Assembly: GCA_018819285.1 (NCBI GenBank)
Contig: JAHJQM010000025.1
Location: 1-41,032 of the forward strand
Direction: 5' to 3'
Origin: Candidatus Omnitrophota bacterium
GTDB lineage: Bacteria; Omnitrophota; Gorgyraeia; Gorgyraeales; Gorgyraeaceae
Length of the DNA: 41,032 nt
The position numbers were made by a program, and so were the translations under genes. This document shows, one piece after another, positions 22,153 through 27,049 of this stretch. A model generated the notes under the pieces. That model made no database searches. It saw only the letters and a program-made list of their open reading frames with translations, and had not been told where the DNA came from. The stretch's first letter is position 1. Each line of letters begins with the position of its first letter.

Positions 22153-22530
22153 CTAATTTATAACGGTAACAATTCCATCTTTAACAGTAATGGTGCCAGT
22201 GGTTACAGCCTCGGTCACGAAATTAACAGTTTTCACATAGGTAATAGTTGTAGTCCCAGCAGCTCCTAGGGTCGTACCCGCTGAATAAGCTGTAGCATCT
22301 ATTGTGCCAGCTACTTTAAGCTTATAAGTGCCAGGGGTTGCCGTCCCAATACCAACGTTACCTGAAGTTGTGGCTAAATATGTGTCTCCTGTTGTTGTAA
22401 GTTCGTCATACGCTCCGTAAGGGGCTGGATAATAAGTGGTAAGCGTTATGTCTTCTGCCATAAGCGTTGCGCCAAACCCAAGAATCGCTAACAAAAATGC
22501 ATAGAAAAAATTAAAAGTTTTTTGTTGCAT
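22153..22530 (-). CDS. Secreted/surface protein with TLTTYYPAPYGAY motif and tail-fibre-like NVGIGT.TP repeat
   Basis: Signal peptide MQQKTFNFFYAFLLAILGFGATLMA, then EDITLTTYYPAPYGAYDELTTTGDTYLATTSGNVGIGTATPGTYKLKVAG. Internal ATG preferred over track start 22563. Confidence 0.7.
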   Translation of the reverse strand: MQQKTFNFFYAFLLAILGFGATLMAEDITLTTYYPAPYGAYDELTTTGDTYLATTSGNVGIGTATPGTYKLKVAGTIDATAYSAGTTLGAAGTTTITYVKTVNFVTEAVTTGTITVKDGIVTVIN

Positions 22531-22569
22531 ATCATACCCCCTTTTTGTTAATCGCAAAACCACGCGATT

Positions 22570-23586
22570 TCAAAACTGCCTTAAAAATCTCACATCATTT
22601 TCATATAACAAACGAATATCATCAATGCCGTATTTCAACATACAGATCCTATCCACGCCCATGCCGAACGCAAAACCTGTATAAATAGCAGGATCTATTT
22701 TTACAAATTCAAATACCCTTGGATTTATCATGCCTGAACCTAAGACTTCAAGCCAACCTTTGTGAGAACAAACCCTGCAGCCTTTTCCTCCACAAATAAA
22801 ACAGGATATGTCAACCTCTGCAGAAGGCTCTGTAAACGGAAAGAAATGCGGTCTGAATCTCATCTTAACGCTATCCCCGAAATATTCCTTTGCGAACCTT
22901 TCCAATACGCCTTTAAGGTCTGAGAATTGAATGCCTTTATCAACCATAAACCCTTCTATCTGGTAAAACATAAATGAATGGCTGGCGTCAACTGCGTCTG
23001 GCCTGTAAACCTTGCCTGCATGGATAACTTGTATCGGCGGCTTTTCTTTTTCCATAACGCGTATCTGGCTTGTGGATGTCTGGCTTCTTAAGAGATTACC
23101 GTTTTCAATATAAAATGTATGAAAGGTCTCTCTGGAAGGATGGTTTTTCGGTATATTCAAAGCCTCAAAATTATAATATTCTGTTTCTATCTCAGGGCTT
23201 TCCACTGCCTTAAAACCCATCTTTCCGAAAATCTCTATTATTTCCTGTGTTGTTTTAATTAGAGGATGGCTATGCCCCAGTTCTCTTTTTATGCCAGGAA
23301 GGGTTATGTCATTATTTTCAAAAATCGTTGTCTCTTTTGACCTAAAATCTTTTTCTCTTTCTTCCAATAAAACCGTTATCTTCTGTTTCAGTTTATTAAT
23401 AAACATACCTGCTTCTGGCTTGTCTTTTTTAGGAACGTTTTTTATGCCCTTGATAGCATCTGTAACAGCTCCTTTCCTGCCCAGATATCTGACCTTGGCA
23501 TTTTCCAATTCTTCAATATTTGAAGAATCAGATATCTCTTTTATTGCTATCCTTTCAATATCCTTTAGCTTATCTATGAATTTCAT
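22570..23586 (-). CDS. pheS: Phenylalanyl-tRNA synthetase alpha subunit
   Basis: HPLIKTTQEIIEIFGKMGF; HTFYIENGNLLRSQTSTSQIR; FRPHFFPFTEPSAEVDISC; GMGVDRICMLKYGIDDIR. Confidence 0.97.
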   Translation of the reverse strand: MKFIDKLKDIERIAIKEISDSSNIEELENAKVRYLGRKGAVTDAIKGIKNVPKKDKPEAGMFINKLKQKITVLLEEREKDFRSKETTIFENNDITLPGIKRELGHSHPLIKTTQEIIEIFGKMGFKAVESPEIETEYYNFEALNIPKNHPSRETFHTFYIENGNLLRSQTSTSQIRVMEKEKPPIQVIHAGKVYRPDAVDASHSFMFYQIEGFMVDKGIQFSDLKGVLERFAKEYFGDSVKMRFRPHFFPFTEPSAEVDISCFICGGKGCRVCSHKGWLEVLGSGMINPRVFEFVKIDPAIYTGFAFGMGVDRICMLKYGIDDIRLLYENDVRFLRQF

Positions 23587-24100
23587 CTTGCCTCCTGATT
23601 TTTTTTAGTTTTAACTGACTTAATATCATTGCTAGACTTAATATTCCTAATAATACGAATGCGCCATTTCTTTTTACAATATCGACCTTCTCTCTAATAA
23701 CCATTCCGCTATCAATCTTGCTCAGCTCCTCGATATGAATATCTAAATCTCCGCCATGTTCGAGACATGCACGATGAAAAATTCCCTTTATCTCTACTAT
23801 ATCTCCGCGAGATTTATAGCCGCCTGTATAAATAATATCCTTTGCCAAATCTTTTTTTGACCAGATACCTATTGCATTTACGCCGTCATTTACATTGACC
23901 CAAATAAATCCGCCGCGCACCATTATATCTCCAATCACCTCGCCTTTATACACAACTGTTTTGCCGTCATATTCTCTTGCGTTTTGTATTAATTCCTCGG
24001 ATGATATTGGAGCGGCAAAACAGTTAATAACCAGAAACCAGTAACCAGAAACCAGTAAAATAGTCCGTGTAATCTGTTTTTTAAATCTGTGATTTATCAT
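23570..24100 (-). CDS. OB-fold exported/membrane protein of unknown function
   Basis: YDGKTVVYKGEVIGDIMVRGGFIWVNVNDGVNAIGIW nucleic-acid-binding-like OB fold; N-terminal signal and C-terminal TM helix. Confidence 0.7.
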   Translation of the reverse strand: MINHRFKKQITRTILLVSGYWFLVINCFAAPISSEELIQNAREYDGKTVVYKGEVIGDIMVRGGFIWVNVNDGVNAIGIWSKKDLAKDIIYTGGYKSRGDIVEIKGIFHRACLEHGGDLDIHIEELSKIDSGMVIREKVDIVKRNGAFVLLGILSLAMILSQLKLKKIRRQDEIHR

Positions 24101-25614
24101 CTACCCCTTATCTCTGCTATAAAAAATCCTATTAAAACAAAAACCGACATAAACTCTAATCTCCCTGTCCACATCTGAAAGATATACGTTAATTTTAAAG
24201 CGACTGGCATGCCAGCATTAGTTATGCCGCAAGATAAACCCACATTAGCTGCAGCTGATGTAGATTCAAATAAAGAATTCAGAAATGGATACCCAAACCA
24301 GGTTCCTATAATAGCGCCTAACATATATAAGCCCAGATATACCAGGGTAATTAAAAGCGCAGACCTCACTTGTTTGTCTTCCAAAAATACATCTTTGATA
24401 TGATGAAACATCTGGCTGATTACAGCGCTTTCCGGCAGGATTATTTTTTTTATATCCTGCTTCAACGCTTTAACAAAAATCCCTATACGCAACATCTTTA
24501 TGCCGCCAGCGGTAGAACAAACGCAGCCGCCTAAACCCATTGCACAAATCAGCCCCACAAGCGCTAAATTTCCCCATTCATTAATAAACTGCCTGGCATA
24601 TATTGTTGTGTAACCCGTGCCAGTATGCCCTGATATAAGATGGAAAAAACCTTTTCTGAACAGCGCGATTGCCTCAGGGTATACGCCCAGCTGATTCAAG
24701 CTAACAACAGTAATGAAAGAAAAAAATAGAATGCTGAAAAAAAGTGTTCTCGTCTCTATATTTTTCCATATCTCTTTACGATTGCCAAACCACATATGAT
24801 AGTGAAGGTTAAAATTCAGCGTGCCCAAAAGCATAATTACGATAGTTACTATTTCAAAAAGCAGGCTATGATAATAAAGTATGTTTTGCGACTGCGGGGC
24901 AAACCCTGCAGTATCAAAACCAGCCATAAATATACACGCGCTATGAAAAAATGCATTCGATGGCTTCATGCCAATTGACATGCCTACTATGCCCAATATA
25001 AGCGTGCCTAAAATTAAATAGACGGTGCTGATCAGCCATATAAATCTTGCTGTATTTATAACGTTTGGCAATAACCTTTCGTCCCGCCCCTCTCCTACAT
25101 ACATTTTAAATGCGCCGGAAGTCCCTTTTACAAAAAAAGACAGGGCAACAATTGCGATACCCTGGCCTCCGATAAAATTACCCAAATGCCTCCATAGATT
25201 ATGAGTATAAGATAAATAATCAAGGCCCTGAACTAAAACGAGCCCGGTTGTAGTAAACATTGACATGGCTTCAAAACAGGCATCCAGGTATGACTTCCAG
25301 TGGCCACTTAAATATAAAGGCAATGCGCCCAATACCATGGCAGCTAACCAGGATAAAGAAACTACTATCATCCCCTGCATCCAATTAAGGTCTTCTTTTG
25401 TGCGGCATAATCTTGTTAAAATGACTCCTATCAATAATGTTATCTCTGCACTGATTAAAAAATCCAGGCTGGGGTTTATTTCACGAAACGTCAAGCCAAT
25501 CGCAATCGGCACTATCATTGTAAGGCCAAGGCCAATAATAATTTTGCCTAAATAATATCCAATGTTTTTAATATCGCTTATATGAGGGCGTAGTATCATA
25601 AGATGTATTGTCAC
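24097..25614 (-). CDS. trkH: TrkH/KtrB family potassium uptake membrane subunit
   Basis: GALPLYLSGHWKSYLDACFEAMSMFTTTGLVLVQGLDYLSYTHNLWRHLGNFIGGQGI; GHTGTGYTT; CVCSTAGGIKMLRI. True start may be ATG at 25599. Confidence 0.93.
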   Translation of the reverse strand: MTIHLMILRPHISDIKNIGYYLGKIIIGLGLTMIVPIAIGLTFREINPSLDFLISAEITLLIGVILTRLCRTKEDLNWMQGMIVVSLSWLAAMVLGALPLYLSGHWKSYLDACFEAMSMFTTTGLVLVQGLDYLSYTHNLWRHLGNFIGGQGIAIVALSFFVKGTSGAFKMYVGEGRDERLLPNVINTARFIWLISTVYLILGTLILGIVGMSIGMKPSNAFFHSACIFMAGFDTAGFAPQSQNILYYHSLLFEIVTIVIMLLGTLNFNLHYHMWFGNRKEIWKNIETRTLFFSILFFSFITVVSLNQLGVYPEAIALFRKGFFHLISGHTGTGYTTIYARQFINEWGNLALVGLICAMGLGGCVCSTAGGIKMLRIGIFVKALKQDIKKIILPESAVISQMFHHIKDVFLEDKQVRSALLITLVYLGLYMLGAIIGTWFGYPFLNSLFESTSAAANVGLSCGITNAGMPVALKLTYIFQMWTGRLEFMSVFVLIGFFIAEIRGR

Positions 25615-25624
25615 CTTTGAATTT
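25599..25624 (-). repeat. Family B right end only, copy B6 (trkH start)
   Basis: AAATTCAAAGGTGACAATACATCTTA, 26 bp identical to the right end of B1. Confidence 0.85.
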
Positions 25625-25629
25625 ACGAT

Positions 25630-25740
25630 TTAAGTTAATATTAAACAGATCAAAAATGCCACTGCCATTATAATTAGAGTATATAAAATTTCAGTTCCTG
25701 CCCCAAGTATAGGCTTCAAAAAAATTTTTATACCTATCAT
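25630..25740 (-). CDS. Small single-TM membrane protein, candidate accessory subunit of the Trk/Ktr K+ uptake system
   Basis: Not in the supplied track (36 aa). Minus-strand translation MIGIKIFLKPILGAGTEILYTLIIMAVAFLICLILT*; ATG overlaps the stop of the upstream trkA-like gene (TTTAATGATAGG) and precedes trkH. Confidence 0.6.
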   Translation of the reverse strand: MIGIKIFLKPILGAGTEILYTLIIMAVAFLICLILT

Positions 25741-26402
25741 TAAAGTTTACCTATCAGTACATTCAACAGCTGCTGCTCATTGCTAACTAATGTAAGGGCT
25801 ATAATATCATCCCCGGGTTTAAGCACAGTATTGCCTTTGGGGATGATTACCTCTTCGCATCTAACAATAGAAACAAATACAGAATCCGGAGGAAGCTGTA
25901 TATCCTGAATCTGTTTATTGATTACAGGGGAATCCTGAGACAGATCTACGCGCACAATGGAGAGCTTGCCATGCTTAAAACTCATAAGGTTTACAATATC
26001 AGATAAAGAAACTTCCTCTTCAATAATCTTGGCGATAATTTTAGTGGAATCAACAGGTACATCAATGCTTAACTTGGAAAAGGTATGTTCGTTGTCCGGA
26101 TTATTTACCCTCGCCACAGTGCGCTGAACATTAAAAATTTCTTTGGCCAATTGACAAACGATCAAATTATCTTCGTCATCGCCAGTTACTGCAGCTAATA
26201 CGTCTGCCCGCTTTATGCCTGCTTCTTCCAGAATATGCGGATCGCAGCCATCGCCATGAATAACCAGCGCTTGCAACTGCTTAGCCATTTCTTCACAAAG
26301 TTCTCTATTTTTATCTACTATGCTAACCGTATGTTTGCCCACTAGTAGCCTTTTTGCCAAAAAATAACCTACTTTTCCGCCGCCAATAATAATAATATAC
26401 AT
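25740..26402 (-). CDS. trkA: TrkA-type RCK (NAD-binding + TrkA-C) protein, copy 2
   Basis: MYIIIIGGGKVGYFLAKRLLVGKHTVSIVDKN; single RCK_N plus TrkA_C. Confidence 0.92.
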   Translation of the reverse strand: MYIIIIGGGKVGYFLAKRLLVGKHTVSIVDKNRELCEEMAKQLQALVIHGDGCDPHILEEAGIKRADVLAAVTGDDEDNLIVCQLAKEIFNVQRTVARVNNPDNEHTFSKLSIDVPVDSTKIIAKIIEEEVSLSDIVNLMSFKHGKLSIVRVDLSQDSPVINKQIQDIQLPPDSVFVSIVRCEEVIIPKGNTVLKPGDDIIALTLVSNEQQLLNVLIGKL

Positions 26403-27049
26403 TAGCTTAACCCAAACCTTTCTTTTATACCTTTAAGGTTGGTTACTTTCACTACACCCATTAATACGTCTTTTACTTTTAGTACCGTATCTGGCTCCGG
26501 GATAATAACTTCATTTAACCTTTTTATAGCCACTACCATAAATTCCCGCGGTATATTTATATCCTTGATCATCTTTCCTCTCAGGCTGTCTTGAACTTCG
26601 ATCTCGATACCCCCTAGTTCTTTTGTTTCAATGAGGTAGCTGGAAAAGCGGCTCTCAATAATCTTATCGCGGATCATTGCTGCAAAAAGAATAGTCCCGC
26701 TAATAACATCCATACCTAGAGCAGTATAAATATGCGCGCGCTGAGGATCATACACTCGAGCAATAACTTTGGGGATATTAAATATCTTTTTAGCTACTTG
26801 AGCGGAAATTAAATTGGTATTGTCTCCATTTGTAACCGCGCAAAAAGCATCTGCTTTCTCAATGCCAGCTTGTTTTAAAAGCTCTGTATCAAACCCACTA
26901 CCCACCAAGGTTACGCCATTGAATGTCCCTCTTAAGCGATCAAAAGAAGATTTGTTTTTATCAATAATAATTACATCATGGCCTTCGTTGGATAAAAGCC
27001 TGGCAAGCTCTGAGCCAACCCTCCCACAACCTGCTATTATTATATGCAT
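26402..27049 (-). CDS. trkA: TrkA-type RCK (NAD-binding + TrkA-C) protein, copy 1
   Basis: MHIIIAGCGRVGSELARLLSNEGHDVIIIDKN; single RCK_N plus TrkA_C. Confidence 0.92.
   Translation of the reverse strand: MHIIIAGCGRVGSELARLLSNEGHDVIIIDKNKSSFDRLRGTFNGVTLVGSGFDTELLKQAGIEKADAFCAVTNGDNTNLISAQVAKKIFNIPKVIARVYDPQRAHIYTALGMDVISGTILFAAMIRDKIIESRFSSYLIETKELGGIEIEVQDSLRGKMIKDINIPREFMVVAIKRLNEVIIPEPDTVLKVKDVLMGVVKVTNLKGIKERFGLS

Follow-up and report, generated by a model that had tools for sequence, protein, structure and literature searches.

A small one-helix membrane protein gene directly upstream of trkH in Candidatus Omnitrophota

Potassium channels of the Trk and Ktr type are described as a channel subunit combined with a gating ring of TrkA or KtrA. 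To our knowledge, the solved structures, in part according to their depositors' descriptions, hold only the channel and TrkA/KtrA chains, and a literature search confined mostly to papers readable without a subscription found no third Trk subunit. The TrkH–TrkA system of Vibrio parahaemolyticus (3PJZ, 4J9U, 6V4J-L) and KtrAB belong to the same channel family, and have the same fold, as the TrkH considered here, which matches V. parahaemolyticus TrkH both by sequence (E 2e-53) and by Foldseek (6e-13).

Two one-helix proteins of other systems serve for comparison. KdpF (PF09604) has about 30 aa and a single transmembrane (TM) helix, and in E. coli K-12 its gene lies directly 5' of kdpA with a 1-nt overlap. 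According to PMC3618439, which cites Gassel 1999, KdpF can be dispensed with in vivo, and in vitro it lends stability to its complex. AcrZ, likewise of one helix, binds a large membrane transporter (PMC7267776). Here we describe a gene of this kind, denoted Sm, that precedes trkH in Candidatus Omnitrophota.

The trk locus and its small reading frame

The window, that is, the whole stretch of 41,032 nucleotides analysed, has on its minus strand the gene order thrS-infC-rpmI-rplT-trkA1-trkA2-small ORF-trkH-176-aa gene-pheS-136-aa ORF-pheT, where we take thrS, infC, rpmI, rplT, pheS and pheT to be such from reading the protein sequences. The features of interest are:

26402..27049, minus strand: trkA-like gene 1, 215 aa, TrkA_N and TrkA_C domains
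25740..26402, minus strand: trkA-like gene 2, 220 aa, TrkA_N and TrkA_C domains
25630..25740, minus strand: small single-TM protein Sm, 36 aa, ATG start, near-invariant G13 and E17, basic N-terminus
24097..25599, minus strand: trkH, K+ channel subunit, 500 aa, ATG start at 25599, PF02386
23570..24100, minus strand: membrane-anchored OB-fold protein, 176 aa, with an N-terminal hydrophobic helix, an OB fold and a C-terminal helix

The preliminary description had reported a 36-aa ORF that follows the second trkA-like gene and precedes trkH, with an ATG overlapping the upstream stop. Both observations hold: the frame (ATG, 36 codons, TAA) is found at this place with the same coordinates and sequence, and the A of its ATG is also the final A of the TAA that ends trkA-like gene 2 (...CTT TAATG...). 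The family alignment supports the ATG at 25599 (MILRP...) rather than the GTG at 25614 as the start of trkH, hence 30 nt separate it from the Sm stop.

The trkH product matches PF02386 (7e-39) and scores 219 bits against TIGR00933, below the cut-off of 331 bits for that family. Foldseek matches its model to 6v4k and 3pjz, and thus by both domain and fold it belongs to the TrkH family. KdpA is likewise among the fold matches of this model (KdpFABC chain A, 3e-4).

Between pheS and pheT (22153-22563, minus strand) lies a gene for a secreted-looking protein of 136 aa (TTYYPAPYGAYDELTTTGDTYLATTSGNVGIGTATP...), which by eye resembles tail-fibre-like repeats; neither Pfam nor NCBIfam matches it above cut-off.

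Conservation and distribution of Sm

The 36 aa, searched on their own, matched an equally placed frame in two congeners (E 2e-12 and 5e-12, 76–78% identity) and in two other genera. Inspection of the trkA–trkH gaps of relatives, as proposed at the outset, revealed an open frame of about 32–47 codons in every complete trkA2–trkH gap of this TrkH subfamily among the first 119 relatives, one of the frames having no usual start codon. Absence or frameshifting in all close relatives, which had been named as a refutation, is not what is seen, as the two congeners keep Sm.

The frame evolves as a coding sequence. In 34 independent close pairs, the pooled pN/pS is 0.33 for the Sm frame versus 0.89 and 1.19 for the remaining two, and the changes per codon position number 208, 127 and 368; the selection check suggested earlier thus yields purifying selection. 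All 158 distinct members, 28–52 aa in length, have one hydrophobic stretch with a 19-residue segment of Kyte–Doolittle hydropathy at least 1.96. Hence the ORF is indeed a protein-coding single-TM gene. A chance ORF in an intergenic gap would agree with its shortness and with the pN/pS of 1.23 between the window Sm and one near relative, a comparison of few sites (a second relative gives 0.34). The probability of this is negligible in view of the conservation, the selection and the linkage to TrkH, and the explanation was rejected on the matches in relatives, the profile search and the pooled pN/pS.

The weighted conservation is 99% at G13 and 98% at E17, small residues are preferred at positions 28 and 32, and the conserved positions are concentrated on one helical face (p 0.011). 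The family is recognised by a single TM helix whose first turns carry G-[IV]-x-x-E and whose gene lies directly 5' of trkH; the window protein (G13-A-G-T-E17) keeps the glycine and the glutamate, with alanine at the usual isoleucine position. Lysines and arginines outnumber acidic residues by 320 to 12 before the helix and by 139 to 2 after it, and given the basic excess before the helix the N-terminus is most likely cytoplasmic. No Pfam or NCBIfam family matches Sm above cut-off, and a comparison of its profile with PDB chains gave nothing convincing (best E 0.8). We conclude that Sm is a genuine family of small membrane genes, to the extent of our searches undescribed, and an example of how sequence alone can reveal genes of a candidate phylum that fall below annotation cut-offs.

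In 89 of the 158 distinct members Sm ends in an ATGA overlap with trkH, and in 141 its stop lies within 15 nt of that gene; in 114 out of 145 the Sm start falls within −4 to +5 of the trkA stop. These overlaps imply coupled translation. The ATGA overlap in most members, together with the very small size of Sm, would also suit a leader ORF, whose translation only delivers ribosomes to the trkH start while the peptide itself is inert. However, the amino-acid conservation at G13, E17 and the hydrophobic face, the low pN/pS and the codon-position bias all argue against an inert peptide, and some Sm frames end at least 20 nt before trkH, so that direct coupling is lost and the protein is kept. A mere leader is therefore improbable and has largely been refuted.

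A profile built from 30 Sm members was run on 386 Omnitrophota genomes without reference to trkH. At E≤1e-3 it matched 119 of them, and 118 of these also carry this TrkH. When the regions of the matches, weaker ones included, were fetched, 98 out of 100 proved to lie directly 5' of trkH and two were chance matches; the 98 include two loci (L097 and L142) where the contig edge follows trkA2 and the Sm gene. The TrkH subfamily itself (E below 1e-100) is present in 137 of the 386 sampled genomes. Before rescue of the weak members, 118 genomes had both genes, one Sm alone, 19 TrkH alone and 248 neither (Fisher p 1e-77). Inspection of the 19 revealed a divergent Sm gene in 13, a frame without a usual start codon in one, an assembly gap or contig end precluding judgement in three, and no Sm in two. 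The Sm frame is thus present in 131 of the 134 assessable TrkH genomes, two having no frame and one no usual start codon. In the named TrkH-anchored set it is found at all 76 assessable copies, and where a genome has two or three TrkH copies, each mostly comes with one Sm gene. Nearly all named records with this TrkH are Candidatus Omnitrophota, two being labelled Planctomycetes.

The exceptions are as follows. In two genomes of one genus (G193 and G205) Sm is gone and trkA2 and trkH overlap directly, and one extra TrkH copy in G156 (C6 paralogue) is also without Sm. Since trkH is kept in these cases, Sm is not strictly required. In the genome with the unusual start (L030, 1362-1500) the frame is open and hydrophobic, with ACG where ATG, GTG or TTG is expected, which is either a non-standard start or decay. 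At L196 (1-200, the same place as L004), tandem repeats (LAKRKAKPLPYRLMA...) stand at the contig end exactly at the expected Sm site; this is probably an assembly end, where Sm is not assessable.

Only three of the 12 sampled congeners (window genus, G000-G011) have trkH, hence the genus has patchily lost or acquired the Trk unit as a whole. Seven TrkH loci from other phyla (plasmid records, distant TrkHs with <33% identity) have no Sm-like gene; in these, and in divergent TrkHs of the same class, the gap is too short for Sm or contains no match. Sm is tied to one TrkH subfamily in Omnitrophota, the scope outside the phylum being these seven distant loci.

The partner of Sm and the OB-fold gene

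In most genomes Sm follows trkA2, as would be expected if it worked with TrkA and not with TrkH. Yet it stays by trkH where no trkA is adjacent, and divergent trkA–trkH pairs are without Sm, which makes a TrkA partner very improbable. The Sm–trkH pair without adjacent trkA is preceded by genes for a KdpD-like (DUF4118) protein and a response regulator in L210, L214, L216, L219 and L223, by a glycosyltransferase gene in L177 and by unrelated genes in L197; several of these genomes have one or two further TrkH copies, each accompanied by an Sm gene. The persistence of the pair at such loci ties Sm to TrkH, the partner that had been suggested at the outset.

The kinases preceding these Omnitrophota TrkH paralogues are short and KdpD-like (DUF4118, no Usp-domain match), and the regulators are of the OmpR type. 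In L214 and L216, the two loci where the domains were checked, the kinase has the DUF4118, HisKA and HATPase_c domains of KdpD. The N-terminal KdpD/Usp domains gave no match in these two, and hence we call the kinases KdpD-like only. Judging from gene content, KdpDE-like control appears to go with a Trk instead of a Kdp system in L210, L214, L216, L219 and L223.

The preliminary description omitted the OB-fold gene, which is as tightly linked to TrkH as Sm. This gene (24100..23570) has an ATGA overlap with trkH. It is found 3' of trkH in 101 of 102 assessable loci, also following the KdpDE-type copies (e.g. L210:4003-4497, L214:3963-4451), and occurs in 135 of the 137 genomes with this TrkH, while two genomes have the OB-fold gene alone. 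Thus the conserved unit is small TM protein–TrkH–OB protein. The OB-fold protein has the conserved motif H-R-x-C-x-E-H-G-G-D-x-D-x-H; for its window member no match to a Pfam or NCBIfam family exceeds the cut-off, and 10 of 58 members yield weak DUF4131 matches. In its AlphaFold2 model (mean pLDDT 95.6) a middle part rich in beta strands lies between an N-terminal helix and a long C-terminal one, and Foldseek matches the model to OB domains from lysyl- and aspartyl-tRNA synthetases. Because the N-terminal helix is signal-like, the protein probably resides outside the cytoplasm.

Comparison with KdpF and a possible role

The analogy with KdpF that had been drawn for the window stands in part. 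Like KdpF, Sm is a short single-TM protein and its gene precedes that of an SKT-superfamily subunit, and the fold match between TrkH and KdpA agrees with this layout. The sequences do not: none of the 30 Sm members matches PF09604 at E≤1, whereas the control, E. coli KdpF, scores 28.9 bits, above the cut-off, and the same KdpF scores 2.3 bits against the Sm profile. KdpF lacks the conserved G-I-x-x-E motif. Further, Sm adjoins trkH and not kdpA of a kdpFABC operon, its partner being TrkH, and no kdpABC was seen in the Sm operon; the layout is analogous. By sequence, as judged with PF09604 and the reciprocal score, Sm is thus not KdpF. Among the 119 relatives, six have KdpF proper; the window genome has none. 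AcrZ resembles Sm as a single-TM accessory protein of a transporter, which is a functional analogy drawn without sequence comparison, and its partner is unrelated to TrkH.

Sm is probably a small accessory component, so far unrecognised, of the Omnitrophota TrkH-type channel, with which it would be physically associated. It is conserved, selected at the protein level, linked to one TrkH subfamily, overlapping with its neighbours and independent of TrkA. By analogy, the best explanation would be a KdpF-like, dispensable subunit for assembly or stability of TrkH, and we consider it fairly likely that Sm is a co-made one-helix inner-membrane protein that packs on TrkH, as KdpF might on KdpA, in a unit with the OB-fold protein. 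Sm would be co-translated with TrkH in stoichiometric amounts; its basic tail would place the N-terminus in the cytoplasm, and its helix would lie against the TrkH membrane domain, packing with the G13-E17-Y/F20-I24-A/G28-C/S32 face. The packing may aid assembly or stability of TrkH, as KdpF does for KdpA. Sm, TrkH and the OB-fold protein would make up one unit, which would be combined with TrkA gating rings in some genomes and with a KdpDE-like regulator in others.

Modelling of TrkH with the peptide, also suggested earlier, made use of the natural fusion that results in frame if the TAA is read through as Gly (window 24100-25740, 111 rows). AlphaFold2 folds the channel part of this fusion, but the Sm helix, at pLDDT of about 53–65, is of low-to-moderate confidence and not confidently placed.

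A charge pair between E17 of Sm and a basic residue in TM1 of the TrkH subfamily (K/R19 in 155 of 157, leucine in the V. parahaemolyticus alignment) was proposed from the alignment as the reason for conservation. It was then weakened, as K/R19 persists in TrkHs without Sm and where E17 is replaced by isoleucine, and position 19 is also basic in some TrkHs with no Sm gene. An obligate E17–K19 interaction is not supported.

More tentatively, and at somewhat less than even chance, the Omnitrophota Trk channel may be of a new composition, with two constant extra subunits around TrkH, the one-helix protein and the membrane-anchored extracytoplasmic OB-fold protein, and with exchangeable control modules, either twin TrkA rings or the KdpDE-like two-component system. 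If true, third and fourth subunits tied to TrkH across many families of the phylum would alter the picture of Trk/Ktr, and small KdpF-like helices would recur in the SKT superfamily, providing a testable case for their function.

Alternatively, Sm may be a regulatory membrane peptide controlling TrkH gating, turnover or the KdpD-like sensor, and not a structural subunit. Single-TM regulators of transporters and sensors are known, AcrZ and MgtR among them, and for KdpF an action on KdpD has been proposed (PMC7267776, PMC6813294, PMC3618439); some Sm copies stand beside a KdpD-like kinase, and Sm is dispensable in a few lineages. We consider this unlikely: most Sm copies have no kinase nearby, and the fixed linkage and overlap, with one Sm per TrkH, suggest constitutive stoichiometric production.
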